Shown here piece after piece: positions 11,513-30,583 of a stretch of DNA of 30,583 bases. Source of the DNA: a virus; the IMG/VR virus record IMGVR_UViG_3300015360_001096, positions 1 to 30,583 of that record. One strand, given 5' to 3'. Each line of letters opens with the position of its first letter. Position 1 is the stretch's first letter. Both the position numbers and the translations under genes were made by a program. Under the pieces are notes generated by a model. It did not search any database and had not been told where the DNA came from. It saw only the letters and a list, made by a program, of their open reading frames with translations.

Positions 11513-12094
11513 TTAGATGGAGTTCATATGTTCCATTTCCCGTCTCCACCCGTCGAAATCTCGTCTCTTCAACTTAGCTAACCCTCCACCCAAATTCCCA
11601 GGTTCACGCCACCACACAATCCCCTCGAACGAACAGGTAGAAAAAAACACTGAAAGCTTCCCGTAGGTACGAGGAGCGGACATTTCCACCACCCCATGTT
11701 TTACGAACGTATGTTCGGGATAACCCTCAGGGTTCCCATTAACTTTCGGGCCAACCAACTCGTACGTTCCGTCACCCAAACCCTCGGAGTTAGAGAACGC
11801 TTCCCAATGGCGGGCAAATTCGGGACCATCATTAACGGGTATCCACCCTACGCTTTTCCCTGTCAGGTCATCATGGTCGACTTCCTCAAAATTTGAGGGT
11901 ACATGCTTACCGGGGACAACCTCCCGGCGCGAGAACATGACACCATCGCGGATCAACACGCACGTCCCGTCGAATTTCCGTGTAGCTATACCTTCTCCAT
12001 CGGCAACCCACTGACAGGCGGGATTCACATCATCAGTGACATACCGAAAATTTGTATTCGGATCACGAACAAAGAAGGTAGGTATTTTCTTCAT
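11513..12094 (-). CDS. RNA ligase-like nucleotidyltransferase (DUF5565 / RNA ligase 1 type)
   Basis: A 193-residue protein with all core motifs of the covalent nucleotidyltransferase (ligase/capping) superfamily. Motif I is RKFDGT with the likely nucleotidyl lysine K40. Motif III is YELVGPKV (residues 111-118), motif IV FEGIVWW (156-162) and motif V LAKLKRRDF (172-180). The length and the spacing match the small DUF5565 RNA ligase family as I remember it. Such enzymes use ATP to seal RNA ends; in phages they usually counter host tRNA cleavage or repair RNA. No polynucleotide kinase partner is visible here. It starts two bases after the terminase stop with a GGAG ribosome site, an unusual place in a packaging operon and close to the inteins, so it may be a later insertion. 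Confidence 0.75.
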   Translation of the reverse strand: MKKIPTFFVRDPNTNFRYVTDDVNPACQWVADGEGIATRKFDGTCVLIRDGVMFSRREVVPGKHVPSNFEEVDHDDLTGKSVGWIPVNDGPEFARHWEAFSNSEGLGDGTYELVGPKVNGNPEGYPEHTFVKHGVVEMSAPRTYGKLSVFFSTCSFEGIVWWREPGNLGGGLAKLKRRDFDGWRREMEHMNSI

Positions 12095-12096
12095 CG

Positions 12097-15000
12097 TTAA
12101 TCTCCCATGAACAATACTTGTGTAGATTCCTGATCATCTTTCTGGATGAACTCCTCAATAGAGAACTGTGCCCAACCCAAAGCTGCCATACGGGCAGCAT
12201 CAAAAGCGTGGAATTTTCCGGCGCTCACCTCACGGCGACCGTACTGGTTCAACGTTGTTTTCGTGATCTTATAGGTTTGTCCCTGAAGTTCCTTCAATAG
12301 ATCCTCATCCCATGGGAGCCACAACCGTCCCTCGTCAACCAATTTTCGTAACGTGTCCGTAGCATACTCTACGACATCACGTCTGATCCCCGTCTGATTG
12401 ATCAGTTCCTCTTTGTCTATGAAATCATCTACCTCTATTGTTAGGTCTAAATCAACGATGATTTTACCGGAGAAGTTATAACCCTTAATGACCGTTTTGA
12501 TCTGCTCTAAATCTTCCACTTCTTTCTGAAGGTCCTGGAACATTGGGAGCCCCAACCCGGTTTTGTCAAGAGCAAAAACGCGAGGATGGTAATGGTTGAT
12601 CACGTGCATGATCGCAGTCTTCTGGTCTGGTGAACTGATCTGTTTCATGTTGATCCGCGTAATGAGCTTCAGTCGAGTTGCAGTCTCGAACGGAGTCTGA
12701 TGTATCAGGCTGGGCATAGTTTTCTTCTGGGTTTTGCTTTTGGTGTAGAAATCGTACTCGGTTTTGGATATTCGTTCTTCTCCGAACACTAAAATTTCGG
12801 AGGGATGGTTTGTGTTCCCAGTAAAATAGACCGAGCCCTCCCGTCGCGCTAACCAGTTCCCAAATTTCAAGGTAGGGCACCAAATACGTCCGCGATAATC
12901 CACAGTCTTTATGGTCATCGCTTGCCACGCCACCGACTCAACAAAGTTATCCTTGTGTGTAGGCACCAATGGAGTGTCCGAACGTTCCACGGTCAAAGGG
13001 ATGCGATCTTTTGTGTTCAGCGTTTCTGTGGTTTTCCATCGCCAATTGTTTTCCCCGTCTCCCATCACTAACCAGCGATGATTTGGTGTCGTCAGAGAAT
13101 CAAAAGATTGTCCCTCCATATGAATCATGGATCTTTTCCGTGCATCGAAAACATGTACGTGATCAATCATCTGCCATTCGCTCATACCAGTGGTCGGGTC
13201 AATCGACAGCGTTAAATCTCCCTTTTCGAGATCAGGCCAGCTAAGCCAACCTCTTTGAGTGAAGATTTCCGTTGCTTCATCGACACAGAAACCGACATCC
13301 ATGCCTACCCAGAACGTTTTATATTTGTCAAGATGGGAGACTGGCAAGAACATTTCATCCAAAATAGAAGAGTTCGTTTCCCGTAACCATGAGTCACTGA
13401 TTCGTAGATGTGTGTATTCTTCTGAATTGTAAGAGGATTCTTTGTCGTCGTCAACGATTGACATTAGGCGATGTAGCACGAAAATGGGGGAAGTGGCATC
13501 ACCATGTTCGCCGAGGATGTTCCGCCGATAGTCGGCGTCTTCGCGTCCGCCATACTGGGCGATTTTCTCTTCGCGTTCATCGTCGCTCCAGGTTGGACGA
13601 TGCATCCCTGTCCATCGGTGGACAGTCCAACGCGTGTTTGGGTCGCTGGTAAATTTGAAGAAGTGGTCGCGAACTCCGCGTGTTACCCCGTGAGATCGCC
13701 ACACTGCCCCATCTACGCCTCGTTTTAGCGTTTCGGTGAGTTCGACCCAGCCCGGCGAAGGGTAGTCAGACGCCTCGTCTTGTTCCAACCATAACGGATG
13801 CGAGTTATGACAGACGATCCCGTCAGCTATGTATGATTGATCTGCCGTAACGATGTTTACGACTGTTCCGGTACCCTTTTCTTTGATACCACGTACTTTG
13901 GTGTATACGAATTGGTTGTCGAACCATCCGTATCCGTCGGTGATTTGCAGCCGCCACGATAATTTCGGTTTCTTTTTCAGATCCCTTTCACGGATGACTT
14001 TAACGTTTGGTTGCATCACAGTAACATTGGAAGTGTAACCTAAAGACTGTGCTAAAAGTTTCACCCCAAAGATAATGCGACGTGAAGCTGAACTAACTGT
14101 CAACCTTTTTCGTCGTTTATCGACGTGCCCGTCCCCAAATGCATAGCCTTCAAGGAATGCCCGTTTGATTCTTGGATGTTGAAACAGAAGCCATGACGGA
14201 AGGAATTTGCCGTCTGCTAACATCCCAAAATGGGTATCGAGCCATCTAGCAAATGACGTTTTCCCGACTTTTATAATGTTCGCCGATGAGTGGGATCTGA
14301 CATGTTCCGAATAAAAGAGAGAGAGGGAGTCGAGTCGAGCAACCAGTTCGTTTTGTTTGACGTTATTGATCGCAAAGTTAACGGCACGACAGGCATACTT
14401 CCCATTTTTTTTGATTCCACTGGTCGACGTGAACCCGTCAGCGACGAAGAGTCCCACTATCCACCAGAAATCCTCGTCCAATGTAAGATCACCACAAGGA
14501 GGGATTGCAATGTCGCCGTCGAATTTGGCTGGGCTTGCCCAATAGAAATTGTCCAAATCTTCTGGCCCGGCCCACAGTTCAGGACCGAAACGACGGTTCT
14601 GTTTTGAATTTCGGGCAATGTTTCGTCGTCCATAGAACCTGTGCTGTTCAGAAACCATAAGATCCGGGATGCCTTGACCCGAGACATAACAGACATCATC
14701 GACGAAACGTTGGACATGCAAAACCGGCATCCAACGAGACTCGTGAGTCCACACCCGATCGTCAGTAGTCACATCCTTAGCAGAAACAAATCCTCGTTCA
14801 GCCAACACGATGGCATTTTCGTCAACGCAGCCCTTCACTCCACGTCCATCGCGTTGGGGGATACGCCCAATTATTCGGGCGCCGTTCTTGAAGGAACATT
14901 GGAATGGACGATGATTTACAGCACTACGACCAGATTGGAGCAGGTGTCTGCCAAGTTGAGATCGGTAAAATTCGTGTTCGATCATTGTTGTGATCGGTTC

Positions 15001-15312
15001 GAGGTGAACAAGTTCAGGGGCAGTTATGAGCATCTCCTGCCCCGGATATATAAACGGGAATGCGAAAGCTCGAATCGCTATCGATTGGCTTTTGCCGACC
15101 GCACGGGCACAGTGCGAAATTTGCAACGGGTCCATACATCGATACCATTTCCATTGAAATGGCCACGCACGCCAAATAGCATCTCCGTTTTGCTCATCTA
15201 CACGGGAAAATTCTGCGAGGTCCAACCCAGATTCGTCGGACAGAATACACCAAAGATACTTTTCATCTTCGGAAAGATCTTCAATGATTTTTGAGGCTGT
15301 CGACTTCGCCAT
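12097..15312 (-). CDS. terL: Terminase large subunit interrupted by two inteins
   Basis: The frame codes for 1071 residues, but removing two inteins (residues 162-503 and 676-833) leaves 571, a normal terminase length. The ATPase half has a Walker A-like CARAVGKS (68-75) and a Walker B LWLEQDE (507-513). The nuclease half has the RuvC-like acidic residues: D672 in VGMDVGF, D916 in VFALDKTGLG and D1038 in FHAFDAAR. The enzyme cuts concatemeric DNA and pumps it into the prohead through the portal. It starts in a TAATG overlap with the HTH gene upstream and is followed at once by the RNA ligase gene. Splicing of both inteins is needed to join the Walker motifs and to restore the sequence around the first nuclease Asp. 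Confidence 0.92.
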   Translation of the reverse strand: MAKSTASKIIEDLSEDEKYLWCILSDESGLDLAEFSRVDEQNGDAIWRAWPFQWKWYRCMDPLQISHCARAVGKSQSIAIRAFAFPFIYPGQEMLITAPELVHLEPITTMIEHEFYRSQLGRHLLQSGRSAVNHRPFQCSFKNGARIIGRIPQRDGRGVKGCVDENAIVLAERGFVSAKDVTTDDRVWTHESRWMPVLHVQRFVDDVCYVSGQGIPDLMVSEQHRFYGRRNIARNSKQNRRFGPELWAGPEDLDNFYWASPAKFDGDIAIPPCGDLTLDEDFWWIVGLFVADGFTSTSGIKKNGKYACRAVNFAINNVKQNELVARLDSLSLFYSEHVRSHSSANIIKVGKTSFARWLDTHFGMLADGKFLPSWLLFQHPRIKRAFLEGYAFGDGHVDKRRKRLTVSSASRRIIFGVKLLAQSLGYTSNVTVMQPNVKVIRERDLKKKPKLSWRLQITDGYGWFDNQFVYTKVRGIKEKGTGTVVNIVTADQSYIADGIVCHNSHPLWLEQDEASDYPSPGWVELTETLKRGVDGAVWRSHGVTRGVRDHFFKFTSDPNTRWTVHRWTGMHRPTWSDDEREEKIAQYGGREDADYRRNILGEHGDATSPIFVLHRLMSIVDDDKESSYNSEEYTHLRISDSWLRETNSSILDEMFLPVSHLDKYKTFWVGMDVGFCVDEATEIFTQRGWLSWPDLEKGDLTLSIDPTTGMSEWQMIDHVHVFDARKRSMIHMEGQSFDSLTTPNHRWLVMGDGENNWRWKTTETLNTKDRIPLTVERSDTPLVPTHKDNFVESVAWQAMTIKTVDYRGRIWCPTLKFGNWLARREGSVYFTGNTNHPSEILVFGEERISKTEYDFYTKSKTQKKTMPSLIHQTPFETATRLKLITRINMKQISSPDQKTAIMHVINHYHPRVFALDKTGLGLPMFQDLQKEVEDLEQIKTVIKGYNFSGKIIVDLDLTIEVDDFIDKEELINQTGIRRDVVEYATDTLRKLVDEGRLWLPWDEDLLKELQGQTYKITKTTLNQYGRREVSAGKFHAFDAARMAALGWAQFSIEEFIQKDDQESTQVLFMGD
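12814..13287 (-). other. Mini-intein in the terminase nuclease domain
   Basis: An intein of 158 residues (676-833 of the precursor). Block A begins CVDEATEIFTQRGW after extein VGMDVGF. Block B is the TPNHRW motif. The C-terminal block is RGRIWCPT...WLARREGSVYFTGN, ending in Asn before the +1 Thr of the extein (TNHPSEIL). The usual penultimate His is Gly here (GN), a known variation in splicing-competent inteins. There is no LAGLIDADG or HNH endonuclease, so it is a mini-intein. Splicing would join VGMDVGF to TNHPSEI, placing the insertion three residues after nuclease Asp 672. Confidence 0.9.
13804..14829 (-). mobile_element. Full-length intein with LAGLIDADG homing endonuclease in the terminase ATPase domain
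   Basis: An intein of 342 residues (162-503). Block A starts CVDENAIVLAERGF after extein GRGVKG. The block B region includes VSEQHRFYG with the conserved His. Two LAGLIDADG-type motifs are visible (FWWIVGLFVADGF at about 282-294 and RAFLEGYAFGDGHV at about 384-397). The C-terminal splicing block is VVNIVTADQSYIADGIVCHN, with the canonical His-Asn end followed by +1 Ser of the extein. The endonuclease would spread the element into intein-free terminase alleles. The host site is eight residues ahead of the Walker B Asp-Glu, a highly conserved spot, which suits homing. Confidence 0.92.
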
Positions 15313-16662: not shown

Positions 16663-16766
16663 TGTGGTTCACCTTCACAACAATGCATTTTGAGTTTGCA
16701 GAACGGACAGAGCCAATGGGTGGCAACGGGATCAAATTCGTGGCCACAATTATCGCAGGTCAGCAT
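16659..16766 (-). CDS. Micro-ORF, 35 residues, zinc ribbon
   Basis: The product begins MLTCDNCGHEFDPVATHWLC and continues PFCKLKMHCC. C4, C7, C20 and C23 form a C-x2-C, 12-residue gap, C-x2-C zinc ribbon, with a further CC pair at 29-30. The start ATG lies inside the last codons of the epimerase gene, and the stop overlaps the next micro-gene as ATGA. Small zinc ribbons are frequent in phages and may bind nucleic acid or a host protein. The four-Cys spacing makes it much more likely to be real than the next micro-ORF. Confidence 0.6.
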   Translation of the reverse strand: MLTCDNCGHEFDPVATHWLCPFCKLKMHCCEGEPQ

Positions 16767-17722
16767 GTCATCTGATCATAAATCCATGCGTACGTTTCAA
16801 CGAGTCCTTCACGTAACGTGATCTGCGGTTCCCAATCGAACAAAGAACGAATTAGTGTATTGTCACTGTTCCTTCCTCGCACCCCCTGGGGGGAGTCGAG
16901 GTCATAACGACGTTTGAGTCTCACTCCGGCGATGTCTTCAACAATATCGACTAACTGGTTCACGGTAACTAGATCTGACCTCCCAAGATTAACGGGGTCT
17001 GAGTATCCGCCGTGCATGATCAGATCAATACCAATGACACAATCGGCCACATGCATGTACGACCGGGTTTGTTGGCCGTCTCCCCATATTTCGATCTCAT
17101 GGGATCCGGACAGTTTCGCTTCGATAACTTTCCGGCAGATCGCGGCCGGTGCCTTCTCGCGGCCCCCATTGTAAATCCCGTAGTTTCCGTAGACGTTATG
17201 TAGACGCCCGATTCGGGTTTCCATACCCATCTCTAATCTATAATATTTAGCCAGTTCTTCCCCGAATAACTTTTCAAGGCCATAAGCGGGTTCCGGATCG
17301 GCGGGCCAAGCGTCTGCTTCCTTGAGTGAAACAACATCCGGGTTTGTTTGTAGATTGTTAGGATAAACGCAGGCCGACGACGCATACCAGAGTCTTGCTC
17401 CGGCATCGTGTGCCGCACGTATCACAGAGGACGTGATGTCCACAGAATGCAACGTAGCAACTCGATGACTAGATATGTATCCCATCCCGCCCATGTCGGC
17501 AGCAAGGTTGTATATCTCATCTGCTCCCTCAAAGGAGTCGAGGGCCGAGGCGGAGTCTTTGAGGTCAACTGTCCGGTTGTCAGCATCCACATAGATTTGG
17601 TGCCAATCATACGCTAACTTTCTATCAACTGCTGTTACATTGTAACCTTTGCTGAGAAGGTAACCGACAAGATGTCCACCAATGAACCCTCCGGCTCCTG
17701 CTACCACTGCTCGAAGTGTCAT
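16760..17722 (-). CDS. GDP-mannose 3,5-epimerase homologue (extended SDR family)
   Basis: A 320-residue SDR-type nucleotide-sugar epimerase. It has the NAD-binding GAGGFIG (residues 9-15), LAADMGGMG, YASSACVYP with C118, KEADAWPADPEPAYGLEK with the Y147/K151 pair, GGREKAPAAICRK with K190, WGDGQQTRSY and GVRGRNSDN. These match plant GDP-mannose 3,5-epimerase. C118, Y147, K151 and K190 are each 27 positions below the Arabidopsis C145, Y174, K178 and K217 as I remember them, so the active-site spacing is kept exactly. The enzyme would turn GDP-D-mannose into GDP-L-galactose (and GDP-L-gulose) in the cytoplasm. It is the last sugar gene of the minus-strand block and would feed the glycosyltransferases. 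A different GDP- or UDP-sugar substrate remains possible. Confidence 0.8.
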   Translation of the reverse strand: MTLRAVVAGAGGFIGGHLVGYLLSKGYNVTAVDRKLAYDWHQIYVDADNRTVDLKDSASALDSFEGADEIYNLAADMGGMGYISSHRVATLHSVDITSSVIRAAHDAGARLWYASSACVYPNNLQTNPDVVSLKEADAWPADPEPAYGLEKLFGEELAKYYRLEMGMETRIGRLHNVYGNYGIYNGGREKAPAAICRKVIEAKLSGSHEIEIWGDGQQTRSYMHVADCVIGIDLIMHGGYSDPVNLGRSDLVTVNQLVDIVEDIAGVRLKRRYDLDSPQGVRGRNSDNTLIRSLFDWEPQITLREGLVETYAWIYDQMTC

Positions 17723-18684: not shown

Positions 18685-20001
18685 TCATAGCGAGACCCCA
18701 AACCGTATAATATTCGTGTCATCCCACGGACCACGAGGCAACAAATCCCACGGGTCGAGGATCAAACCAGACTGACGTTCTGTCGATTCCAACAGTTCAG
18801 GGAACCCGGACCGGAACGACTCGTCATTGTTTGCTATGACAGTAATGATATCGTTTCCTACACACCCAGCCCAGAATTTTTCCCATTTCACATACGGAAA
18901 TGTTGGTCGGTATAGGGACCAATCAACCATAGGGTCATGGACCGAGACGACAAACCCTTCCTTCCCTAGAGTTTCCATTAACTCAAAACCGAAGGATTCA
19001 TTGACAACAGCGGTGCCAGGTTTATAGGAAAGGCCCACGATGCCAACATGGGGACGACCCGACTGCAAGACAAATCCGATAAGTTGTTTTCGTTGTTCTT
19101 CGTTAACAAGATCTGTAGCTATCGCTAACGGGGCGGGAACCCCAAATGCTGCCGATAACGTCCTGAAAGCACGTTGATCTCTAGGGAAACAGGGTCCGGC
19201 ATAACTCGTTCCAGGATTCAAATATTTATGTCCGATACGACGATCGAGCCCGATGGCTTTTGTTACCGTGAACGCATCCCCGCCAGGGATTTTATTGCAC
19301 AATTGGCTCAACATGTTAGCGAATGAGATCTTCATTGTAACATAAGAATTGACTGAAAGTTTCGCGAGTTCTGCGTTCACCAAACTCATCCGTCGCACCG
19401 GAGGGAACGGGGTTGAATCAATGGCCACATGCAACGCGAGCGACATATACTCGTCACCTGCCCTGGAATCTGATTCGCCAATCAGAATCATGTCAGGGTA
19501 TCTCATGTCCTCCAGTACGGAACCGAGGGCAATAAATTCGGGGCTGAACACCAAACCTAAAGTTTCGCCCACGACACGCCCAGAAGATTCTTCTAACGCT
19601 AAACGTATTGGCCCATCACACGAACCGGGCATCACTGTGGAGGAAATAACCACAAGAAACCAGTCTTTGTCTTTAGGTATGTTTTCGCCTATCGACCGGC
19701 AGGCTTCGGCGACGTAACGGTTCGTGAACGCTCCGTTATCCAATGATGGGGTTGGGACAAGAACAATTGCCGCATCAGATTCTCCAATGGGTTCATAATT
19801 GTCGTGAACTGTTAAGCTCCCACTGTCAATGACTTGTTTCAGCAGTGGTTCAAGTTCGGTCTCTGTTATTAGACAGTTACCTTCCTGTATTGTTTCCACA
19901 GTCTGTTTATTCAGATCTATGCCGAACACACGGTTAAATTCGGCGTGGAGACAAGCGAGCGGTAACCCTAATTTACCTAATCCAATGACGCTGACATTCA
20001 T
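18685..20001 (-). CDS. Nucleotide-sugar 6-dehydrogenase (UDP-Glc / GDP-Man / UDP-ManNAc type)
   Basis: A 438-residue NAD-dependent dehydrogenase. It has the N-terminal Rossmann motif VIGLGKLGLPLA, then LVPTPS, VFSPEF, a middle helical segment (ELAKLSVNSYVTMKISFANM) and the catalytic Cys C271 in GTSYAGPCFPRDQRAF. The C-terminal domain has VGIVGLSYKPGT. The family oxidises the C6 alcohol of a nucleotide sugar to a carboxylate in two steps, giving a uronic acid donor. The exact substrate cannot be read from motifs; UDP-glucose and GDP-mannose are the main options. If GDP-mannose, it would compete with the epimerase for the same substrate. It starts in an ATGA overlap with the glycosyltransferase upstream. 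Confidence 0.8.
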   Translation of the reverse strand: MNVSVIGLGKLGLPLACLHAEFNRVFGIDLNKQTVETIQEGNCLITETELEPLLKQVIDSGSLTVHDNYEPIGESDAAIVLVPTPSLDNGAFTNRYVAEACRSIGENIPKDKDWFLVVISSTVMPGSCDGPIRLALEESSGRVVGETLGLVFSPEFIALGSVLEDMRYPDMILIGESDSRAGDEYMSLALHVAIDSTPFPPVRRMSLVNAELAKLSVNSYVTMKISFANMLSQLCNKIPGGDAFTVTKAIGLDRRIGHKYLNPGTSYAGPCFPRDQRAFRTLSAAFGVPAPLAIATDLVNEEQRKQLIGFVLQSGRPHVGIVGLSYKPGTAVVNESFGFELMETLGKEGFVVSVHDPMVDWSLYRPTFPYVKWEKFWAGCVGNDIITVIANNDESFRSGFPELLESTERQSGLILDPWDLLPRGPWDDTNIIRFGVSL

Positions 20002-20741
20002 GTTATGGTTGATAGTATAGTGGTATTAGGCAGAATGTCCAGCTTTGGTGGCAAGATAATTGATTGAATATGTCGCGCTCCATGTCCCGACCTACCCTGG
20101 TAGCGTTCGTATTTTAGTTGTCTATCTTTTTCGGAATAGTAGCCGAGGTGAGCGATCTCAAATTGGTTTGTGTAAGTGACCTGGGTTACGTAGGAGGGGA
20201 CGCTCCCCCCTCCCATTTTTTTGGATTGGAAGTCGCCATTGGGTTCCCAGGCTACGACTCGTAGGGCTTTGATTTTTCCCCATTCTCCATCCACTCGGAT
20301 TTGTGGTTGGTTGTCGGGAGTTCGCCCCCAGATTTCGTGGACATGACACCATATTCCATTCGAGTGGATCTTCTCGGCATCTTCACAAACTGATCGTAAT
20401 GTTCTATCAATGCCCTTTTCCGTCTCGGGAAGGAGAAGAAGTTCGTCGGCATCGAGGCTTACAACCCAGTCGCCCGGGACGGGTTCACATGCTATCTCTA
20501 AAGACCTCCAAGCTGCTTCTCTGAAAGCAGATTCATCTTCGAGGAAAGATGGCACGGAATCTGGTCTAAGAAACCAATCTATCCCACTAATACCCGAAAC
20601 GATGTCTTGGGTTGCATCGGTGGACTGGTCGTCATAGACGACGATTCTGTCAGCCCACGATCGGGCATTATCTAATGTTGATTCGAGATAACGGTCAGAT
20701 TCGTTGCGAGTGACCATGTATAAGAGAATACGAGAGCGCAC
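19998..20741 (-). CDS. Glycosyltransferase family 2-like
   Basis: About 247 residues with a GT-A fold. The N-terminal ILLYMVTRNESDRYLESTLDNARSWADRIVVYDDQSTDAT contains the nucleotide-binding Asp pair, and VVSLDADELLLL carries the DxD motif for metal and donor phosphate. An ATG exists at 20753, but GGAGG lies five bases before GTG 20741, so I took the GTG. It would transfer a sugar from a nucleotide donor to a glycan or protein; donor and acceptor are unknown. It is the first gene of the left block, after the 330-base intergenic region, and so probably near the promoter. Translation of the dehydrogenase is coupled to it. Confidence 0.75.
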   Translation of the reverse strand: MRSRILLYMVTRNESDRYLESTLDNARSWADRIVVYDDQSTDATQDIVSGISGIDWFLRPDSVPSFLEDESAFREAAWRSLEIACEPVPGDWVVSLDADELLLLPETEKGIDRTLRSVCEDAEKIHSNGIWCHVHEIWGRTPDNQPQIRVDGEWGKIKALRVVAWEPNGDFQSKKMGGGSVPSYVTQVTYTNQFEIAHLGYYSEKDRQLKYERYQGRSGHGARHIQSIILPPKLDILPNTTILSTIT

Positions 20742-20773
20742 CTGCACCTCCATGTAATTAAGCTGGTAAAATG

Positions 20774-21073: not shown

Positions 21074-21865
21074 TCAACAAGGTCTCTCTAATCGACTTAC
21101 CCCACTACCAATGCCCAGCGCAGGAATGCCGTTTCCGCCCCAGCCATAGCACGGGGACACCATGGGGGCATCGTGATACTTCCATTGGTGCTGCGGAAAC
21201 AGATAGAACACATCTCCGGTGTACGTCGTACAAGCGTACACAAGGACTTGGTTACTTGGATCGAACAGTTCGTAAAGATCCGTCTCCATATCCTCAAACA
21301 TGTGAGCGTATTCATTGAGCACAAAAAAGGCATTGATAGGAGACATTCCTACGAATGTGTACCCCTTAGCCTTAGCCACGCGCACCAATGCCGCCGCTGA
21401 ACACCCAATCTGCTGGTTCTCTAGGAGAGGCCATACATCCAAGAACACTGGGATCGTTGGAGTAAACTCAACGATAAGAACAACTGGTTGAACCAACAGA
21501 CCCTCTAGCACAAAATAATCATCACCATCGATATCGATCGACATCACGGTTACATTCACATTGGCTAAGCGCGCGTTTAGAACCTCAGATGTGATGGCAA
21601 CGCATTCAATAGTAACTCCCGGGTATCCCTCTGTAGTTAACTGTAGATCCCCAAATCGACGCGGGCTGCTTTCGTACAGATAAGCATTCCATCCACCGTC
21701 TTTCCAAAGATGCGCAGTGTTCGAAGCAAATACCCCGTCCCACGCCCCAAACTCAACACACGTATTCCCAACGCTATCCCCAAGACGTTCCAGCACAAAC
21801 GCCAACATTCCATCTTCACCAAACTGGGAGTAAATGTTCGATTGATAATCGATAAGACGTTTCAT
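21074..21865 (-). CDS. FkbM-like methyltransferase, SQFGEDG type (paralogue 1)
   Basis: 263 residues from ATG 21865. That start overlaps the upstream stop as ATGA and has GGAG nine bases before; an upstream ATG at 21895 is less likely. The N-terminal NIYSQFGEDGMLAFVLERLG and CVEFGAWDGVFASNTAHLW (SAM-binding motif I) and later MSIDIDGDDYFVLEGL are typical of FkbM-related proteins found in surface-glycan clusters. The C-terminal 70 residues are variable. It is clearly related to the plus-strand protein at 26419. It probably methylates a sugar hydroxyl, though catalytic activity is not proven. It is co-translated with the FkbM gene upstream. Confidence 0.7.
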   Translation of the reverse strand: MKRLIDYQSNIYSQFGEDGMLAFVLERLGDSVGNTCVEFGAWDGVFASNTAHLWKDGGWNAYLYESSPRRFGDLQLTTEGYPGVTIECVAITSEVLNARLANVNVTVMSIDIDGDDYFVLEGLLVQPVVLIVEFTPTIPVFLDVWPLLENQQIGCSAAALVRVAKAKGYTFVGMSPINAFFVLNEYAHMFEDMETDLYELFDPSNQVLVYACTTYTGDVFYLFPQHQWKYHDAPMVSPCYGWGGNGIPALGIGSGVSRLERPC

Positions 21866-22539
21866 GTTCGAAGACTCCAACTCTCCCATACCCACGGTAT
21901 TCCCCAGTCTCGCTGATGCGTTTGTGCTAGTGCGGTAGTTACTTGCACATATCGTTCTAACGCATTAGGGACTTCGAACAACGCTCCGTCTTCCATAAAC
22001 ACCCAGTGATGAAACTGCACCTGTAGATGCTTAACTAGCACAATCTTATCGGCATCAATCAAATCATCGATAAGGTCGTACTCTCCGCCCTCGATATTGA
22101 CCTTCATAAGTGCAATGGGTTCATGAAGTATGCCAGAAACCCGTCGAATGGTCACCATCTCTTGCCATGGATCCGGTAGCAATAGAGACGTGCGGTCCCC
22201 GTTGTCATCAACCCGTACATCAAGATCAGATGCCCCTAACCCGTAGCCCTCAATCTTAAAAGCCTCAAGAGTGAACCGTCGAGTCAACAGTTCGTGAAGT
22301 CTTGGGAGAATCTCAAACATTCGAACGGTACATCCGTATTGACAATGTATGCGAGCTGCAAACTCTCCTTCATGCGCCCCGACATCCCATACAACATCCT
22401 CCGGAGTTAAAACATGGTCGTAACGAAGATCCTCGTCCCATCCACGATTCTTTTGTACGTCAGATACCCGCAAGTCGTTCCACTCAACACGAAATTCTTC
22501 GAGCGTACGCTGAACAATAGAGAACAACTCAGGTTCCAC
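21862..22539 (-). CDS. FkbM family methyltransferase
   Basis: 225 residues from GTG 22539, which has GGAGG six bases upstream; the frame is open to 22617 but overlaps the upstream gene. SAM motif I is VVWDVGAHEGEFAARI and the family signature is ALMKVNIEGGEYDLIDDLI. FkbM-type enzymes O-methylate sugars or polyketides. In glycan clusters they often cap or tailor chains. It lies between the GT-B-like transferase and the SQFGEDG protein with stop-start overlaps on both sides, so the three are one translation unit. Confidence 0.75.
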   Translation of the reverse strand: MEPELFSIVQRTLEEFRVEWNDLRVSDVQKNRGWDEDLRYDHVLTPEDVVWDVGAHEGEFAARIHCQYGCTVRMFEILPRLHELLTRRFTLEAFKIEGYGLGASDLDVRVDDNGDRTSLLLPDPWQEMVTIRRVSGILHEPIALMKVNIEGGEYDLIDDLIDADKIVLVKHLQVQFHHWVFMEDGALFEVPNALERYVQVTTALAQTHQRDWGIPWVWESWSLRT

Positions 22540-23506
22540 TGATCGCCTCCAGCGCCCGTAAAATGTTCCGCACTTTAAAGTCGTACCCCTGGTTAGTAAT
22601 ACATTTCTGCTGCGCACGAGTCATCTCGACATAGTCGCTATCACTCAACGAAAATGCTTCCTCAATCAACCCCGCAATGGAATCTGATTGAAGAGAACAA
22701 CCATCAAAAATACTCCGAAACATTGGAACGTTGGTGATCCCTAGCTGTCCGTACGAGACATTCTTGAACGCTCTACATGGCAAATAGTTATGTTCAACGG
22801 CCCACCTCCCAGCGATGGCCGGAGCAAGTCGAGATGAGCGCACTAACTCAATGTTCTCTTCAGTCGTTGCTCTTCGGACCTCAAAGTCAACCCCGCAACT
22901 CCGCAGCCCCAGACGCATCTCTTCAACCTCACCCAAGTTGCCTTGATTTTCCTCGTTATTCCACACCGAACCAACCCAATAAGATGCGTCTCCGGAAGGC
23001 GCCACTGGATCTCGGAACTCCGCTGAAGTTAGGTCCGTTCCCCACGGCTGATAGAGGCATCTCTCCTCCTTTGAGAAGAACGTCGTGTTATCCCATCGTT
23101 CTCGCGCAGGCGATACGTCTCGCCCATGTCCATCCGTGTGTATTAGTGAATCATAAGGGCACACGTCAATGTGGTCCCGGTCATACACCGGAGCACATGT
23201 GACTTGAAGGACTAAACGGTCTTCCGGTGGAATCTCGGACGTCCACGGCTTGCTGCCCAGATTGTACGTAACAAATTTCGCTCCCGGCACGTATCGCAAG
23301 TGTGTGTCATACAAATCTGATACGATGACAATATCCCCAGGTTGAATGACTTTCAGCGACTCGGGAGTTGCATCCACCCACGCAACGGGGACCCCCATCT
23401 TTTTGAGGGTTCGATCAAACGCTTCCCAAATCCAATACAGATCGGGCCGCTGAGTTAGAGGCACAGCATTTAGATTCCAAATGACGAACTTTCCGAACTC
23501 AATCAA
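22529..23506 (-). CDS. Putative glycosyltransferase, GT-B-like
   Basis: A 325-residue protein starting at TTG 23506, with GGAGG eight bases before. Alternating alpha/beta segments run through the protein (VIWNLNAVP, IVIVSDLYDTHL, FVTYNLGSKPW, SYWVGSVWN). The C-terminal part (LAPAIAGRWAVEHNYLPCRAFKNVSYGQLGITNVPMF), with an acidic/Arg pattern, resembles the donor-binding half of GT-B enzymes related to CgeB-like proteins. I see no DxD motif, as expected for GT-B. Donor and acceptor are unknown. It is the first gene of the middle minus-strand block and diverges from the plus-strand block. Confidence 0.55.
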   Translation of the reverse strand: MIEFGKFVIWNLNAVPLTQRPDLYWIWEAFDRTLKKMGVPVAWVDATPESLKVIQPGDIVIVSDLYDTHLRYVPGAKFVTYNLGSKPWTSEIPPEDRLVLQVTCAPVYDRDHIDVCPYDSLIHTDGHGRDVSPARERWDNTTFFSKEERCLYQPWGTDLTSAEFRDPVAPSGDASYWVGSVWNNEENQGNLGEVEEMRLGLRSCGVDFEVRRATTEENIELVRSSRLAPAIAGRWAVEHNYLPCRAFKNVSYGQLGITNVPMFRSIFDGCSLQSDSIAGLIEEAFSLSDSDYVEMTRAQQKCITNQGYDFKVRNILRALEAISGT

Positions 23507-23554: not shown

Positions 23555-23992
23555 ATGACAGTCAACAGACCCAGTGACCTTAATGTATCCTATGAGATAG
23601 GCAGTCCTGTAACCGACTCGACCGCCTCGGCGATCCGCCAGCGGCGTGACGCCGCTTGGTCGGGCGATCAGCCCGTCTCATGTTTAGGTGGGCATCTAGT
23701 AACAGGGAAACTCGTCGAATACGCAGACGGGCTATTTGTAGCGAACTGCCAAACATGTGGGGAAAGGATAAAGATAGAACGAATCCCCGGTGGAGTTTCC
23801 TGGCGACAAGCGTCTGCATTCTTAGCCCGTTCACTGGACCTCGACGGCGAAAACATTTCTGAACTTCTCGGGCTACTCAAAGAACTTGAATGTCAACTAG
23901 ACGTCGAAAAAAGAAAACTAGATCATGCGCAGCAACTTATAAACATCTCCCGTTCAACCATAATAAAACGGGCTCTGGTCGGAGACCAGTAA
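23555..23992 (+). CDS. Unknown protein with possible zinc site and C-terminal coiled coil
   Basis: 145 residues. C43 and H47 (SCLGGH) with C65 and C68 (CQTCGE) could form a zinc-binding knuckle around two beta strands. Residues 98-140 are a heptad-like helix (ISELLGLLKELECQLDVEKRKLDHAQQLI). It is the first gene of the plus-strand block and is coupled by TAATG to the PD-(D/E)XK nuclease. A nucleic-acid-binding or assembly partner of the nuclease is a reasonable guess but is not shown. Two adjacent hairpins (23640-23656 and 23661-23675) lie in its early coding region. Confidence 0.6.
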   Translation: MTVNRPSDLNVSYEIGSPVTDSTASAIRQRRDAAWSGDQPVSCLGGHLVTGKLVEYADGLFVANCQTCGERIKIERIPGGVSWRQASAFLARSLDLDGENISELLGLLKELECQLDVEKRKLDHAQQLINISRSTIIKRALVGDQ

Positions 23993-25160: not shown

Positions 25161-25955
25161 ATGGGTGTTGATCTGATCGTCGTTAACTATAGATCCCCTC
25201 ACGATCTCAACCATTTCATACTTTCCCTTCAAAGAAACCAACCAACCATACCTTGGGATCTGGTTGTGGTGAACGTCGACCCGTTACAAGACGATGTGCT
25301 TATTGCTCAACACTCGATTGAGGTTCTCCCTGGGCGGGTAGTCGTCTACCAGTTCGACTCTAATGTCGGGTACGCAACGGCAGTGAATATGGCCTCTACG
25401 TTTGGATCTAATGAAGTGTTAGCTATCTTCAATGCTGACACTCGCTTAACTCCAAATGTTATAGATGAATGTCATAATGTTCTCATGTCCCGTGAAGAGT
25501 GGGCAGTACTAGGACCACGCCAAATCGACAACAGTGGAAAAATTACACACGGCGGAATTTTCGGTTCGATGAGCAAACGTGTTGAAAGGGGATTCCATCA
25601 TCGTAACGACGATGGAATTTACGGTGACGTGAGGGACGACGCCACAACAGTCTCCGGCGCTTGTTTCTTTGTGAAACGAGCAGTGTGGGACGAGTTGACA
25701 TCTTGTCCTATTTACCGTTCTCGATTCCCTGACGTTAAAGGCGCGTTTTTGCCCACTATGCACTATTGGGATGAAACGTGGTGCGCTGTTCATGCTATAA
25801 CGCACGGGTATCGTTGCGTGTACTATGGTCCTATGACAATGATTCATCTTTGGCATAACGCCTCACGCGTCGGGGGATGGGCGGAACGTCAGATAACAAA
25901 ATCACGGAGCCTATTCGCAGAGATGTGCGACCTGCACGACATCCCCCATGAATAA
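25161..25955 (+). CDS. Glycosyltransferase family 2, rhamnosyltransferase-like
   Basis: 264 residues with the classical GT2 order: LIVVNYRSPHDLNHFILSL, QFDSNVGYATAVNMA, VLAIFNADTRLTPN (the DxD is NAD-T here), VSGACFFVKRAVWDEL, and a C-terminal helix-rich part. The NVGYA-A-N and GACFFVKR patterns are shared with bacterial rhamnosyl- and other sugar transferases of O-antigen clusters. The substrate is unknown. It is the third gene of the plus-strand block and precedes the GC-rich iron-sulfur gene. Confidence 0.8.
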   Translation: MGVDLIVVNYRSPHDLNHFILSLQRNQPTIPWDLVVVNVDPLQDDVLIAQHSIEVLPGRVVVYQFDSNVGYATAVNMASTFGSNEVLAIFNADTRLTPNVIDECHNVLMSREEWAVLGPRQIDNSGKITHGGIFGSMSKRVERGFHHRNDDGIYGDVRDDATTVSGACFFVKRAVWDELTSCPIYRSRFPDVKGAFLPTMHYWDETWCAVHAITHGYRCVYYGPMTMIHLWHNASRVGGWAERQITKSRSLFAEMCDLHDIPHE

Positions 25956-25974: not shown

Positions 25975-26004
25975 ATGGACATGAACAAGGAGCCTTTCGC
26001 ATGA
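25975..26004 (+). other. Nine-codon leader ORF overlapping the start of the iron-sulfur carrier gene
   Basis: ATG 25975 gives MDMNKEPFA and stops in the ATGA at 26001-26004, which includes the carrier start. Its AAG GAG codons are also the ribosome site for the carrier gene. It may couple translation of the carrier to upstream genes, or be accidental. Confidence 0.25.
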
Positions 26005-26351
26005 GTGCCATCGAGGTCACAACCACACCCGTCATCAACCTCACCGACAGCGCCGCGGCCAAAGTCGCCGAGCTGCTGGCCCAGGAGGGCGACGACCAGC
26101 TCGCCCTGCGCGTCGCCGTCAAGGCCGGCGGGTGTTCAGGGATGTCCTACGAGATCTTCTTCGACACCGACACCGGCCCCGGGGACCATGAGGTCGTGTT
26201 CGGCACGGTCAAGGTGAGAGTCGATCCGGCCAGCGCCCCCCACCTCGCCGGTGCCACCCTCGACTACAAGGACAGCCTCAAGGACGCCGGGTTCCACATC
26301 GAGAACCCCAACGCCCAACGCTCCTGCGGCTGCGGGCAGTCGTTCTCGTGA
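26001..26351 (+). CDS. A-type iron-sulfur cluster carrier (IscA/ErpA/HesB family)
   Basis: A 116-residue A-type carrier. The three ligand Cys are all present: C45 in KAGGCSGMSY, and C109 and C111 in SCGCGQSFS, with the family core in between (TLDYKDSLKDAGFHIENPNA). Such proteins bind and deliver [2Fe-2S] or [4Fe-4S] clusters to apo-enzymes in the cytoplasm. The length and C-terminus agree with the complete family. The ribosome site AAGGAG sits eight bases before the ATG. It is strongly GC-rich: 44 of 60 bases in 26041-26100, against 23 of 60 in 25441-25500 of the preceding gene. Codons end almost always in C or G. This points to recent capture from a high-GC actinobacterium. The likely role is support of an iron-sulfur enzyme during infection. 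Confidence 0.93.
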   Translation: MSAIEVTTTPVINLTDSAAAKVAELLAQEGDDQLALRVAVKAGGCSGMSYEIFFDTDTGPGDHEVVFGTVKVRVDPASAPHLAGATLDYKDSLKDAGFHIENPNAQRSCGCGQSFS

Positions 26352-27068: not shown

Positions 27069-27719
27069 TCAGTCCAGTTCTAATAACGGGTTCTCTAAAT
27101 GTCCTGAGTTGTTTCTATGTATACGATAATACGCCAGTACCTCGGGGATGATCTCAAACCTGTAGTTCCCAACCTCCCTGCGCCACAATTCAAGGTCTTC
27201 CTGCGGAACCTGCTGCGGCCAATAACGCGAGCACCCCCGCCAAAACTCTCGTGTGTACGCAATGACCGGATGACACATCGGATTACGTCGAGCCGCTAGC
27301 TCCACTGCGATGTCAACATGACTAACCACAGCGGAGTCGACCACTCGCCCCGACTCATCAATGAATTTATAATCACTCGACACGAGTTGCGCTCCATTAA
27401 ACACCCTAGCTAGCTGACGTTCAAAGCGATGCAGAACGTACGTATCATCGATATTTGTGTTGAACACAACCTCGTAGTCATTGTCCCAAAAACAATAATC
27501 AAGAAGATGGTTCATGGCATCAGCATAACTGTCTAACTTAATGATACTGAACTTAGATCCCATGTAATACTGCGGGCCTACCCCATCATAAGCTAACTCA
27601 ACAACGTCGAAGTCGGCGAATGTTTGCCCACGAATCGACCTCATGCACATCTCAATCCATTCTTGAGCATAGACCTCAGAGGCATTGCTGTGATACACAA
27701 TCACCGCCACCCGATTCAT
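27069..27719 (-). CDS. Glycosyltransferase family 2-like
   Basis: 216 residues from ATG 27719, which overlaps the upstream stop as ATGA. The GT-A signs are VAVIVYHSNASEVYAQEWIEMCMRSIRGQTF, then VVFNTNIDDTYVLHRFERQL (the donor-binding region with NIDD), NPMCHPVIAYTREF and VPQEDLELWRRE. The nucleotide-sugar motif is a variant DD rather than DxD. It is the last gene of the right minus-strand block. The substrate is unknown. No terminator is visible in the 14-base gap to the convergent gene. Confidence 0.7.
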   Translation of the reverse strand: MNRVAVIVYHSNASEVYAQEWIEMCMRSIRGQTFADFDVVELAYDGVGPQYYMGSKFSIIKLDSYADAMNHLLDYCFWDNDYEVVFNTNIDDTYVLHRFERQLARVFNGAQLVSSDYKFIDESGRVVDSAVVSHVDIAVELAARRNPMCHPVIAYTREFWRGCSRYWPQQVPQEDLELWRREVGNYRFEIIPEVLAYYRIHRNNSGHLENPLLELD

Positions 27720-28459
27720 AACCCAACCCACGAACTCGAAATGAAATCACTCTTGAACGAACATCTCAATGCGGGATACGCAACGCCATACCAATCCTCG
27801 GGGTAAACCACACGAGGATTACCCGATAGCCATGATCCCCACCACGAAAACGACGAGTTGGCAATGATGTGCTCCGAACACAGTCTCATCAGCAGAAGTT
27901 CTTCGTGATCCACAACATCGGCGATTGCGACATGCTCAGGCGATACGAATATGAAGTCCGCAGGAAAGTTCTGCTTGCACCAATCAATCCCATCCGAGAA
28001 CACAATGAAGACTATGCCAGGCTCCCACTCTTTCACTATCTCTATGGCATGTTGGTAATATTCGATTGGTTGAACTGGATGCCACTGCTCCTTCCCGATA
28101 GCATCTCCTCGACGGACGTGCACGGCGCATACCGGAACATCAATCTCAAAAAACCACGCGTACTTATCTACCATATGCGAATGGGTGGTTACCGACGCCG
28201 AAAACCAGTCTCTGACTAACCCCTCGGACCCAAAAAAATGCCGCAGTTCTTGCAAGTGCACAAGCCCAGGATCATGATCGCCATCCATCGGCACGTGACC
28301 GAACTTCTCCTTTGGAACGTTAAAGAACGATGCATAGCGCCACGAGGGAAAGGCGACATTTGCCCCATCATGGCTCGCCATCCCAACTGTCGACGCGATC
28401 TGCCAGAGCTGATTACCGAGACGGCCGTACATTCCAAGCTCCATAAACGTGCGTCTCAT
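27716..28459 (-). CDS. Alpha-1,2-fucosyltransferase-like enzyme (GT11)
   Basis: 247 residues with the GT11 signatures: GRLGNQLWQIAS (residues 12-23, N-terminal nucleotide region), CAVHVRRGD (111-119, the HxRRGD donor-binding motif) and EHIIANSSFSWWGSWL (196-211). The family adds L-fucose from GDP-fucose to the 2-position of galactose, making H-type antigens. GDP-L-galactose is a close analogue that fucosyltransferases can use in plants lacking fucose, so L-galactose may be the real donor here. The start overlaps the GT6 stop as ATGA. The two genes are therefore co-translated and probably act in sequence. Confidence 0.85.
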   Translation of the reverse strand: MRRTFMELGMYGRLGNQLWQIASTVGMASHDGANVAFPSWRYASFFNVPKEKFGHVPMDGDHDPGLVHLQELRHFFGSEGLVRDWFSASVTTHSHMVDKYAWFFEIDVPVCAVHVRRGDAIGKEQWHPVQPIEYYQHAIEIVKEWEPGIVFIVFSDGIDWCKQNFPADFIFVSPEHVAIADVVDHEELLLMRLCSEHIIANSSFSWWGSWLSGNPRVVYPEDWYGVAYPALRCSFKSDFISSSWVGL

Positions 28460-29205
28460 AGCCTGCCCCTATCGAATGCCAACGTCGTTGGATCAGGCTG
28501 TAGGTTCTTGTTTAAATCAAACTCCGCACCCTTAACTAAGCACAAAATCTTCAAGTCATGCCCGACAGTGTGCTCCGGGTAACAGTAGGTGGGAGGTAGC
28601 ATCGTTACGTCGTTGGCTCCACCTGTATGGATGAACTTATTGAGGTGACTCTCGTCATGCCACCTGGCGATTACTCCATTATCCAAATCAACGTCAACGT
28701 GATGTTGGCAGTAGCGCATCCACTTCAAGTAGCTCTCGCGAGTACCTCCATTAAATCCCCCGACCACGTAAAAATACCGATCAGTTTCTTCTAGTGATAC
28801 ATACGCCGTAGATTCCGGACGGTTCTCCCAGCTACCTGTCCCTTTAGTGACAAACGAGGCATGCTGCACCACAGTGAACTCATTGAGGATCTCATTACCG
28901 ACAGGAGATGCCACACGGCAATCGACATCAATGTAGAAAACATAATCCCCAGTTATCAGACTTTCCCGAGAGAGAAACACATGATGTCGAAACAATGTCG
29001 CCTCAGGAAAACCAAGTGATTGCACGGGAACCCTTCGCACATTCACACGATCAGATTTCTCGTTTGAACCACCCTCAACGTCAGTGAACAACAGCACCGA
29101 CACAGCATGCTCGACTAAGAAATAATCTCGGACAGAGCGTAAAAGTTGCGGCACCCACTGGGAGTACTTACCTGTAGCAATGCAAAGAAGAGTTACGTCA
29201 CTCAT
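28456..29205 (-). CDS. GT6 family glycosyltransferase (ABO / alpha-1,3-Gal(NAc) transferase-like)
   Basis: 249 residues with the GT6 core: YVFYIDVDCRVAS (DVD, residues 93-95, the metal and donor site), SWENRPESTAYV, YFYVVGGFNGGTRESYLKWM (146-162) and ARWHDESHLNKFIH (180-193), then PPTYCYPEH. These are diagnostic for the ABO and alpha-1,3-galactosyltransferase family. Human ABO enzymes add GalNAc or Gal to fucosylated galactose. Bacterial and phage members are short forms like this one, without a membrane anchor. It overlaps the neighbouring genes on both sides. The exact sugar and linkage are unknown. Confidence 0.85.
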   Translation of the reverse strand: MSDVTLLCIATGKYSQWVPQLLRSVRDYFLVEHAVSVLLFTDVEGGSNEKSDRVNVRRVPVQSLGFPEATLFRHHVFLSRESLITGDYVFYIDVDCRVASPVGNEILNEFTVVQHASFVTKGTGSWENRPESTAYVSLEETDRYFYVVGGFNGGTRESYLKWMRYCQHHVDVDLDNGVIARWHDESHLNKFIHTGGANDVTMLPPTYCYPEHTVGHDLKILCLVKGAEFDLNKNLQPDPTTLAFDRGRL

Positions 29206-29918
29206 CTGTTCCCACCGATAAGTTCCCGCATTGACTCCGGGTTCATGTTCGCAGAGCGGTACCGCAACATCAGAGCCTTATTCTCCAGAATATGAGGCTG
29301 CTTGAAATTTTCGGCATCGCTACGCGGATGCCACAGATGGACGACAAAACTCTCTAACACTCGCACAGGTTTCCCTACCAACGTCCACAGTGCGTACCCG
29401 AATGCATCGTCCTCATACCCCCACCCGATGAACCGTTGGTCCATACCGCCGGCAGTTACGAACGCATCTCGCGACATGACGAGCATTCCCGAGATGGTGT
29501 TCTTTAGTGCGTGTTCATGATGGAGTGGATGAACTATCGAACGTAGTTTCTGCTCTCGATTCTTCTGATCACAAGCGTAGAAGTCCTGAGTCCACTCACG
29601 TGTAGCATTGTAATACATATCGTGGGGAACTACCCACGGAGCCCCGTTCGTAACAGCCGCCGTCGCTAACGTAATCGCATTGGGATCGAAGAGAGTGTCA
29701 GCGTCAGCAATAGCGATCAAACTGCCAATAGATCCATCGAATGCGTCGTTACAAGCCTCCGACCGATTAAACGGTGAGTCTGCGGAACAACTACCGAGAA
29801 TGACTTCTCCGGTGTCCCCAAGAGCACTGCGCCAGTGATCCATAACGGTATTGAGATGTCGATCACGCCAACCACCCTGTTCTCGATATGGGATTAGAAC
29901 ACTAACAACAGTCGTCAC
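29202..29918 (-). CDS. GT-A glycosyltransferase with galactosyltransferase-type C-terminal domain
   Basis: 238 residues. VVSVLIPYREQGGWRDRHLNTVMDHW (N-terminus), LIAIADADTLFDPN (DxD) and the C-terminal block ISGMLVMSRDAFVTAGGMDQRFIGWGYEDDAFGYAL, which is the GWGxEDDxF acceptor/catalytic motif of the GT27 and beta-1,4-GalT type (Glyco_transf_7C). It resembles chondroitin polymerase-like and GalNAc transferase domains. It could add Gal or GalNAc to a glycan core, giving an acceptor for the GT11 enzyme. It overlaps the GT6 gene and the next gene by stop-start overlaps. Confidence 0.8.
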   Translation of the reverse strand: MTTVVSVLIPYREQGGWRDRHLNTVMDHWRSALGDTGEVILGSCSADSPFNRSEACNDAFDGSIGSLIAIADADTLFDPNAITLATAAVTNGAPWVVPHDMYYNATREWTQDFYACDQKNREQKLRSIVHPLHHEHALKNTISGMLVMSRDAFVTAGGMDQRFIGWGYEDDAFGYALWTLVGKPVRVLESFVVHLWHPRSDAENFKQPHILENKALMLRYRSANMNPESMRELIGGNR

Positions 29919-30580
29919 CGCACACCCCGGTACATTTGACGGATCTGTGAAGCGACACGGTTGTGCACCTCGATTTTCCCGGAGTTGCGTCCAGTCCGAC
30001 CATCGTCCACATGAACGCGGTATACCGCAGAGGGCACCTGCACTACCGAAGCCCCTAGCCTCGTCGTAGCGTGCAACCAGTACGCCCAGTCCTCAAGTAC
30101 TGACCACTCGGAGAACCCCCCGATCCGTTCAAATAGGTGAGCACTGTGCACGCACCCTATGTGCAGATAGTTCTGGGACAATAAGCCCCCCCGGGGCTCA
30201 CTTCCAATCCAGGGACTCGACATGTCATCACCGTTGAGAACCTCAACTACTGCCGGTTGGAATATCGAATACTGCGGGTCCTTGCCACGGCCCGCAGTAT
30301 TCGATATCGTCTGCTCTTTTTCAATCCCCCGTTGCATCTGTTCGATGAATGAGGGACCCAACTCATCATCGGCATCAAGGAACACCAAGAAATCACAACC
30401 GTGTTTAGAGATGAGCAACGCGGCTGCCGCGTTGCGCGCCATAGCCAACGTATCGTGGTGTACCCACTCCCACTGGACATCCACCCCCTGCTGATTTCCA
30501 ACGCTCTCGATAGCGCGCGCAGCAAGAACCTCCCACACATTCCTATCGTCGTACGTCCCGATAGCGACACCGATGTTCAT
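29915..30580 (-). CDS. Glycosyltransferase family 2
   Basis: 221 residues. MNIGVAIGTYDDRNVWEVLAARAIESV, HDTLAMARNAAAALLIS, FLVFLDADDELGPSFI (DxD), and GGFSEWSVLEDWAYWLHAT (ED-W motif). It is the first gene of the right block within this window, with its ATG at 30580-30578. The frame contains a perfect 17-base inverted repeat (30262-30307) coding for residues around TISNTAGRGKDPQYSIF, in a loop region after the DxD. Donor and acceptor are unknown. Confidence 0.8.
   Translation of the reverse strand: MNIGVAIGTYDDRNVWEVLAARAIESVGNQQGVDVQWEWVHHDTLAMARNAAAALLISKHGCDFLVFLDADDELGPSFIEQMQRGIEKEQTISNTAGRGKDPQYSIFQPAVVEVLNGDDMSSPWIGSEPRGGLLSQNYLHIGCVHSAHLFERIGGFSEWSVLEDWAYWLHATTRLGASVVQVPSAVYRVHVDDGRTGRNSGKIEVHNRVASQIRQMYRGVR
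30262..30307. repeat. Perfect 17-base inverted repeat inside a glycosyltransferase gene
   Basis: Arms at 30262-30278 and 30291-30307 are exact reverse complements (ATATCGAATACTGCGGG), separated by 12 bases. It lies within coding sequence, in frame. It could fold as a long hairpin in RNA or single-stranded DNA. Confidence 0.9.
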
Positions 30581-30583
30581 CGC

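Follow-up and report, generated by a model that had tools for sequence, protein, structure and literature searches.

Two glycosyltransferases (GTs) of the families that make the H and A/B antigens, i.e., GT11 and GT6, lie next to each other in a viral genome, and the question that this locus raises is whether they form one functional unit there. The DNA analyzed (hereafter, the window) is the complete IMG/VR virus record IMGVR_UViG_3300015360_001096, a linear sequence of 30,583 bp that is likely a fragment, ending inside a glycan cluster. As described in an initial annotation of this record, two neighboring open reading frames (ORFs) on the minus strand overlap as ATGA (Table 1). Our analyses establish these genes, the families to which they belong, their key residues and predicted folds, and their association in viral genomes, and they identify a likely host; they led us to propose, at about even probability, that the pair sits in a run of soluble GTs building a short H/A-like glycan, GT11 acting before GT6, on the virion or host surface.

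Both proteins belong to their assigned families

The GT6 protein matched Pfam PF03414 (5.8e-26; 91.4 bits versus a cut-off of 25) and PHROG 3317 (4.2e-38), and its sequence matches in the PDB included human ABO transferases, the best match being BoGT6 (4ayj; 1.4e-26). Consistently, the predicted model (pLDDT 87) superimposed on 4ayj (BoGT6a) with a Z score of 31.1 and a root-mean-square deviation of 1.7 over 218 residues, and on human GTA (3ioj) with a Z score of 29.1. The key residues (D93-V-D95, H115, W182-H-D-E185-S, and K225) are, as a set, invariant or nearly so among 36 viral GT6 proteins, with H115, E185, and K225 being invariant in that alignment. More specifically, E185 corresponds by sequence alignment to E192 of BoGT6a, whereas K225, located at the end of both structural alignments, corresponds to K346 of GTA and to Lys231 of BoGT6a, which binds UDP (PMC3961637). 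The prediction that this protein carries the GT6 family signatures was thus borne out, as the protein retains the DxD motif, the His of the acceptor site, the Glu nucleophile, and the Lys that binds UDP, and both alignment and predicted fold revealed that the donor- and acceptor-site residues have been kept.

BoGT6a, the closest solved relative of the phage GT6, uses UDP-GalNAc (GalNAc, N-acetylgalactosamine) as donor and 2'-fucosyllactose as acceptor (PMC3961637). Human GTA/GTB and BoGT6a share with the window protein the GT-A fold and the His, Glu, and Lys sites at an identity of about 27-33%, the substrates of the phage enzyme being putative. D93-V-D95 aligns with N-A-N of BoGT6a and is the same as the DxD of the vertebrate ABO enzymes; since DxD versus NxN has been tied to metal dependence, and BoGT6a is an NxN, metal-independent enzyme (PMC3961637), the phage GT6 is predicted to be metal-dependent. 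Its score against the bacterial GT6 subfamily model NCBIfam NF041524 (Gltr_6) was 153.6 bits and did not reach the cut-off of 250, thus placing it within the GT6 family but outside that subfamily. At the alignment position that we take to be equivalent to GTA residue 268, the phage protein appears to have Gly, as in GalNAc-transferring forms, but at the presumed equivalent of residue 235 it has Ser, as in GTB, so that either UDP-GalNAc or UDP-Gal may be the donor.

The neighboring protein matched Pfam PF01531 over residues 112-217 (1e-20; 74.6 bits versus a cut-off of 23.9) and PHROG 2644 (1.1e-40). It had initially been credited with all GT11 signatures, which held for GRLGNQ, the donor-site motif H114-V-R-R-G-D119, and NSSFSWW, all of which are intact, but not for two near-invariant sites (conserved in at least 90% of alignment rows each), at which FSDD reads FSDG and the Tyr following RRGD is replaced by Ala. 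We know of no catalytic role for either site, and we treated both changes as divergence of the predicted enzyme and not as grounds for excluding it from the family. In comparison with known structures, the predicted fold (mean pLDDT 83) was closest to GDP-fucose enzymes (Z scores of 11-13.7 to FUT8, POFUT1, NodZ, and AtFUT1). The list of fold matches did not contain any GT11 structure, phmmer found no relatives of this protein in the PDB, and a single-protein scan of viral contigs returned no close GT11 relatives. One may ask if GT11 is inactive or degraded, with GT6 acting alone. The two changes at near-invariant sites and a long branch in the GT11 tree are in favor of such a loss, but the open frame is of normal length, the fold is confidently predicted, and the HxRRGD and NSSFSWW motifs are intact, so that we regard inactivation as very improbable.

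GT6 lies close to GT11 in viral genomes

One scan of IMG/VR yielded 543 GT6-encoding stretches. Among GT6-seeded viral loci, a set that is rich in cyanophages and whose clusters are not phylogenetically independent, GT11 was present within 8 kb in 64 of 81 (or in 40 of the 50 clusters formed at 90% identity), whereas GT6 was found within 8 kb in 12 of 80 GT11-seeded loci (11 of 57 clusters). This asymmetry fits a need of GT6 for the product of GT11. As a stricter control, we used cyanophage glycan clusters seeded with GT25, in which the two enzymes are common (55/80 and 46/80) and their co-presence exceeded the base rate weakly (p 0.05 at an odds ratio of 2.8, without significance in long loci). 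We therefore rejected co-presence alone as evidence, and the argument rests on proximity and asymmetry instead. The two genes were adjacent in 14 of 36 clusters, compared with 7.5 expected from random gene order (p about 0.008), and within two genes of each other in 25 of 36, compared with 14.4 expected (p about 0.0001). Taken with the acceptor that BoGT6a prefers, the asymmetry and the proximity suggest that GT6 may depend on GT11.

In the window, GT6 precedes GT11 in the order of transcription, and four-base overlaps recur at the two junctions that lie upstream in this run (ATGA at 29202-29205 and GTGA at 29915-29918). The ATGA overlap thus indicates an operon and not a pair, and we discarded it as evidence for a pair-specific unit. 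Accordingly, the notion of a coupled unit acting as H-then-A/B, put forward in the initial annotation, stands in so far as both families are present and their neighborhood in viral genomes is nonrandom, but it finds no support in the overlap, which occurs run-wide, or in the order of transcription.

The same observations bear on the alternative that GT6 and GT11 act on different glycans or residues and are found together because GT genes accumulate in modular, fast-shuffling phage clusters. Such accumulation would account for the weak co-presence in GT25-seeded clusters, for several GT genes in a row overlapping alike, and for a gene order that varies among lineages; nevertheless, the proximity in excess of random order and the strong asymmetry argue against it, as do the acceptor-site His and Glu that GT6 has in common with an enzyme using fucosylated acceptors. 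We consider this alternative improbable.

The pair is known in phages and may have arisen more than once

The initial annotation knew of no phage with the coupled pair, but such phages were already on record. GT11 is annotated directly upstream of GT6 in cyanophages S-CAM9, S-8S56, B23, Bellamy, DSL-LC02, and DSL-LC03, and P-SSM2 and ACG-2014f carry the two genes a short distance apart. We therefore dismissed the idea that this is the first phage with the coupled pair: searching other phage genomes recovered the pair in cyanophages as well as in the viral GT6 loci described above, and it is already known in phages and common in those of cyanobacteria. The cyanophage pairs resemble that of the window in comprising the same families, encoded on one strand by neighboring or overlapping genes of a phage glycan cluster, and their GT6 enzymes have the DxD motif and the same catalytic residues. 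They differ in gene order (GT11 first there, GT6 first here), in sequence (about 28-35% identity between the proteins of the pairs), and in likely host (i.e., a cyanobacterium for the cyanophages and an actinobacterium for the window).

In viral loci, GT11 more often precedes GT6 than follows it, but the GT6-then-GT11 order of the window was also found in loci L057, L049, and L086. L057 (IMG/VR contig 3300021479_000013) shares with the window the identical ATGA overlap, and its GT6 groups with the window GT6, together with those of L048, L086, and L091 (support 91/89). Its GT11, in contrast, falls in a different group: the window GT11 belongs to a group of 56 rows (100/98), and the GT11s from the loci nearest to the window by GT6 lie outside that group. 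Given the discordance between the two trees, in both of which the window branch is long, we rejected a single inherited pair common to the nearest relatives. The discordance is compatible with repeated pairing, and GT6 and GT11 may have been brought together more than once. That the H and A/B antigen enzyme pair recurs, in varying gene order, among phages unrelated to each other, one of which probably infects an actinobacterium, suggests that phages have repeatedly recruited this two-step logic, and phages constitute a large reservoir of GT6 and GT11 enzymes of predicted function. Two unusual arrangements were noted among these loci, namely, a GT6-GT11-GT6 row in L086 (7992-10083), in which two different GT6 genes surround one GT11 gene, and a 505-aa ORF in L001 (2756-4273) with an N-terminal GT11 domain and a second GT-like domain, on a contig that also carries GT6.

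GT6 and GT11 of soil phages have been presented as carbon-sequestration genes in one glycolipid pathway, with glycosphingolipid synthesis and carbon storage being inferred (PMC12016548, 2025). We found no sign of a lipid acceptor for the window pair, and the GT11 annotation was already present in phages such as P-SSM2. Among openly licensed papers, we found none in which the pair is linked to GDP-mannose 3,5-epimerase (GME) or treated as a two-step unit of the ABO kind.

The phage encodes a GDP-mannose 3,5-epimerase

The epimerase gene of the window (Table 1) scored 278 bits to plant GME (8sg0/2c59), the next family reaching 96 bits. All diagnostic features, which we took from PMC6678494, are present: GAGGFIG (the GxxGxxG motif for NAD), SACVYP (catalytic Cys), YGLEK (YxxxK), GGREKAPAA (catalytic Lys), and GVRGRNS (conserved Arg). 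By these sequence features, the protein is a complete, true GME, predicted to synthesize GDP-L-galactose. It has all the catalytic residues of bacterial and plant GMEs and differs from them in being phage-borne and clustered with GT11 and GT6. Bacterial GME has been hypothesized to serve lipopolysaccharide (LPS) and antibiotic L-sugars (PMC6678494), and a phage GME was reported earlier in S-SCSM1 (PMC9602691). In L057, unlike the window, GME was not found, and the search returned only a weak match to a short-chain dehydrogenase/reductase.

In cyanophages S-8S56, S-CAM9, and Bellamy, a GME gene with the same motifs lies directly upstream of GT11-GT6, and the S-8S56 epimerase scored 275 bits to plant GME, compared with 79 for the next family. 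In ACG-2014f and DSL-LC03, GDP-mannose dehydratase (GMD) and GDP-fucose synthase adjoin the pair. Since GME accompanies the pair in some phages and GMD and GDP-fucose synthase do so in others, the attached L-sugar may differ between phages, being fucose in some and L-galactose in others. Among GME-seeded loci, GT11 was present in 3 of 21 and GT6 in 0 of 21. Three cyanophage genes located directly before GT11-GT6 and carrying all GME motifs (L013, 6032-7183; L014, 6062-7183; L016, 6110-7195) bear the annotations UDP-glucose 4-epimerase, nucleotide-sugar epimerase, or NAD-dependent epimerase; the GME finding would correct the first of these annotations in several cyanophages.

A captured erpA gene points to an actinobacterial host

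The erpA gene of the window has a GC content of 66.7%, compared with 49.5% for the rest of the window. Its protein is 92% identical to ErpA of an Aquihabitans metagenome-assembled genome (MAG), with the next best match at 62%; the similarity runs about 30 bases beyond the stop codon, and genes of a chromosomal type flank erpA in the MAG. Together, the GC contrast, the identity, and the gene setting in the MAG suggest capture from an Acidimicrobiia host, likely a recent event. The host is therefore probably a freshwater actinobacterium of the Acidimicrobiia, for which one captured gene is a strong hint and not proof. Acidimicrobial actinobacteria are not known to produce LPS, and the analogy with E. 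coli O86-type clusters drawn in the initial annotation is thus not directly transferable. The MAG of the probable host encodes GMD (gmd), which scored 446 bits and exceeded its cut-off, as well as an Fcl-like enzyme, whose 288 bits fell under the strict cut-off. GME was not found in this MAG, which may be incomplete, the best match being 30% identical, and the phage thus apparently brings a donor activity that its probable host lacks.

L-Galactose or L-fucose as the first sugar

The presence of GME is what introduces L-galactose as an option, and we judge it somewhat more likely that the predicted donor of GT11 is GDP-L-galactose from the phage epimerase than host GDP-L-fucose. In its complete form, an ABO pathway that runs on L-galactose supplied by the phage itself would comprise phage-made GDP-L-galactose, transfer of L-galactose by GT11 in alpha-1,2 linkage to galactose, and capping by GT6; we put this forward tentatively, as less likely than not. 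If true, the phage would produce an H/A-like epitope with a 6-hydroxyl from a donor that the host is unable to make, and a GME-GT11-GT6 unit would recur in phages of cyanobacteria and actinobacteria.

An ordinary H/A-type pathway, as envisaged in the initial annotation, would instead draw on host GDP-L-fucose, GT11 forming Fuc-alpha1,2-Gal and GT6 capping it, with the epimerase feeding some other, unrecognized transferase of the cluster. In favor of this pathway, the GT11 family is one of fucosyltransferases, gmd and a gene for an Fcl-like enzyme are present in the likely host, GMD and GDP-fucose synthase occur in 35 and 28 of the 81 GT6-seeded viral loci, respectively, and both adjoin the pair in DSL-LC03 and ACG-2014f. 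Against it, the phage encodes a GME, which was not found in the host MAG, no other GDP-L-hexose-type transferase was recognized in the fragment, and in S-8S56, S-CAM9, and Bellamy it is GME that accompanies GT11-GT6; we consider this pathway somewhat unlikely. The link between GME and the pair opens a direct biochemical test that would tell L-fucose from L-galactose as the first sugar.

A proposed pathway and its target

We infer the donors, the acceptor, the order of action, and the target as follows. During infection, the soluble GTs encoded by about five overlapping genes would assemble a single short glycan in the cytoplasm of the host. The GDP donor would be either host GDP-L-fucose or GDP-L-galactose derived from host GDP-mannose by the phage epimerase, and from it GT11 would add an L-sugar of the L-fuco or L-galacto type, alpha-1,2-linked, to a galactose-like residue. 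GT6, using a UDP donor and a metal ion, would then add alpha-1,3-GalNAc or Gal to that galactose as well. The resulting trisaccharide end would be H-to-A/B-like and might be mammal-like, as suggested in the initial annotation, and the glycan would probably decorate a virion protein or a host-surface glycan.

Several points weigh against this pathway. The four-base overlaps extend along the run and are not specific to GT6-GT11, the IMG/VR record is a fragment, and the activities of these proteins are predicted only; to these are added the divergence and long branch of GT11 and the weak co-presence in GT25-seeded clusters. As for L-galactose, the epimerase gene lies 10 kb from GT11, on the same strand but past a plus-strand gene block, and L-galactose is not required, as GDP-fucose can probably be made by the likely host.

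With regard to the target, which is compatible with either donor, the pair could alter exopolysaccharide or a wall glycan of the host during infection, against other phages or grazers, instead of decorating virions. Cyanophage sugar clusters have been read as acting on the host surface in this manner (PMC9602691). Such remodeling is less easily reconciled with a cluster in which we found no export, flippase, or polymerase gene: none of the 18 sugar-region proteins of the fragment, which may hide one, looks like a polytopic membrane protein of the kind that would signal a flippase or polymerase. Moreover, the tblastn matches of the GT7 C-terminal-like gene product adjoining GT6 are galactosyltransferases of Mycobacterium, Gordonia, and Streptomyces phages, and glycosylation of virions has been reported in mycobacteriophages (Freeman et al. 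2023, as cited in PMC11256854). Remodeling of the host surface thus falls a little short of an even chance in our estimation.

Gene context

Beyond the GT run, the window contains a plus-strand block with GT genes, erpA, and an FkbM-like gene, followed by another block on the minus strand that comprises the FkbM methyltransferase genes, a GT2 gene, a nucleotide-sugar dehydrogenase gene, and the epimerase gene, and then by structural genes (Table 1). The last gene of the run, which follows GT11, encodes a product that resembles a GT by eye and returned no match in Pfam and PHROG searches.

Table 1. Features of the window referred to in the text
Feature	Coordinates	Strand	Basis
GT6 (ABO/alpha-1,3-Gal(NAc)T-type) glycosyltransferase	28456..29205	-	249 aa; Pfam, PDB matches, predicted fold, residues
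GT11-type (alpha-1,2-fucosyltransferase family) glycosyltransferase	27716..28459	-	247 aa; Pfam, PHROG, motifs, predicted fold
ATGA stop/start overlap of GT6 and GT11	28456..28459	-	Read from sequence
Glycosyltransferase with GT7 C-terminal-like domain	29202..29918	-	PF02709 2e-8; ATGA overlap with GT6
GT2-like glycosyltransferase, first gene of the run within the fragment	29915..30583	-	PF00535 4.2e-4, under gathering cut-off
Glycosyltransferase-like gene (by eye), 16-base overlap with GT11	27069..27731	-	Sequence inference only
GDP-mannose 3,5-epimerase (GDP-L-galactose/GDP-L-gulose synthesis)	16760..17722	-	320 aa; PDB matches, motifs
Nucleotide-sugar (UDP-glucose type) dehydrogenase	18685..20001	-	TIGR03026 1.8e-80, above cut-off
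GT2-family glycosyltransferase	19998..20753	-	PF13704 8.2e-12
Two FkbM-type methyltransferase genes	21074-21895, 21862-22617	-	PF05050 0.0021 (under cut-off) and 2e-5
GT2-family glycosyltransferase	25161..25955	+	PF00535 3.6e-7
erpA (Fe-S cluster insertion), probable host capture	26001..26351	+	Aquihabitans MAG identity, GC contrast

Additional genes of the window were noted. The product of 22529-23506 (minus strand) and that of L057 14071-15003 (plus strand) look alike by eye and are present in both clusters; Pfam and PHROG searches with the former returned no match, and the two proteins are possibly members of an undescribed GT family. A phage endonuclease I-like gene (PF05367; 23890-24414, plus strand) lies in the sugar cluster and overlaps an ORF at 23555-23992. 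A 1071-aa terminase-like ORF (12097-15312, minus strand) seemingly contains two intein-like inserts, one with a LAGLIDADG domain (Pfam PF14528) and the second, shorter and recognized by eye, around residues 690-860; a splicing domain is weakly supported by formal matches. Adjoining this terminase-like gene, the ORF at 11513-12094 (minus strand) matches the RNA ligase 1 family RLIG1 (PF17720, 3.1e-8).

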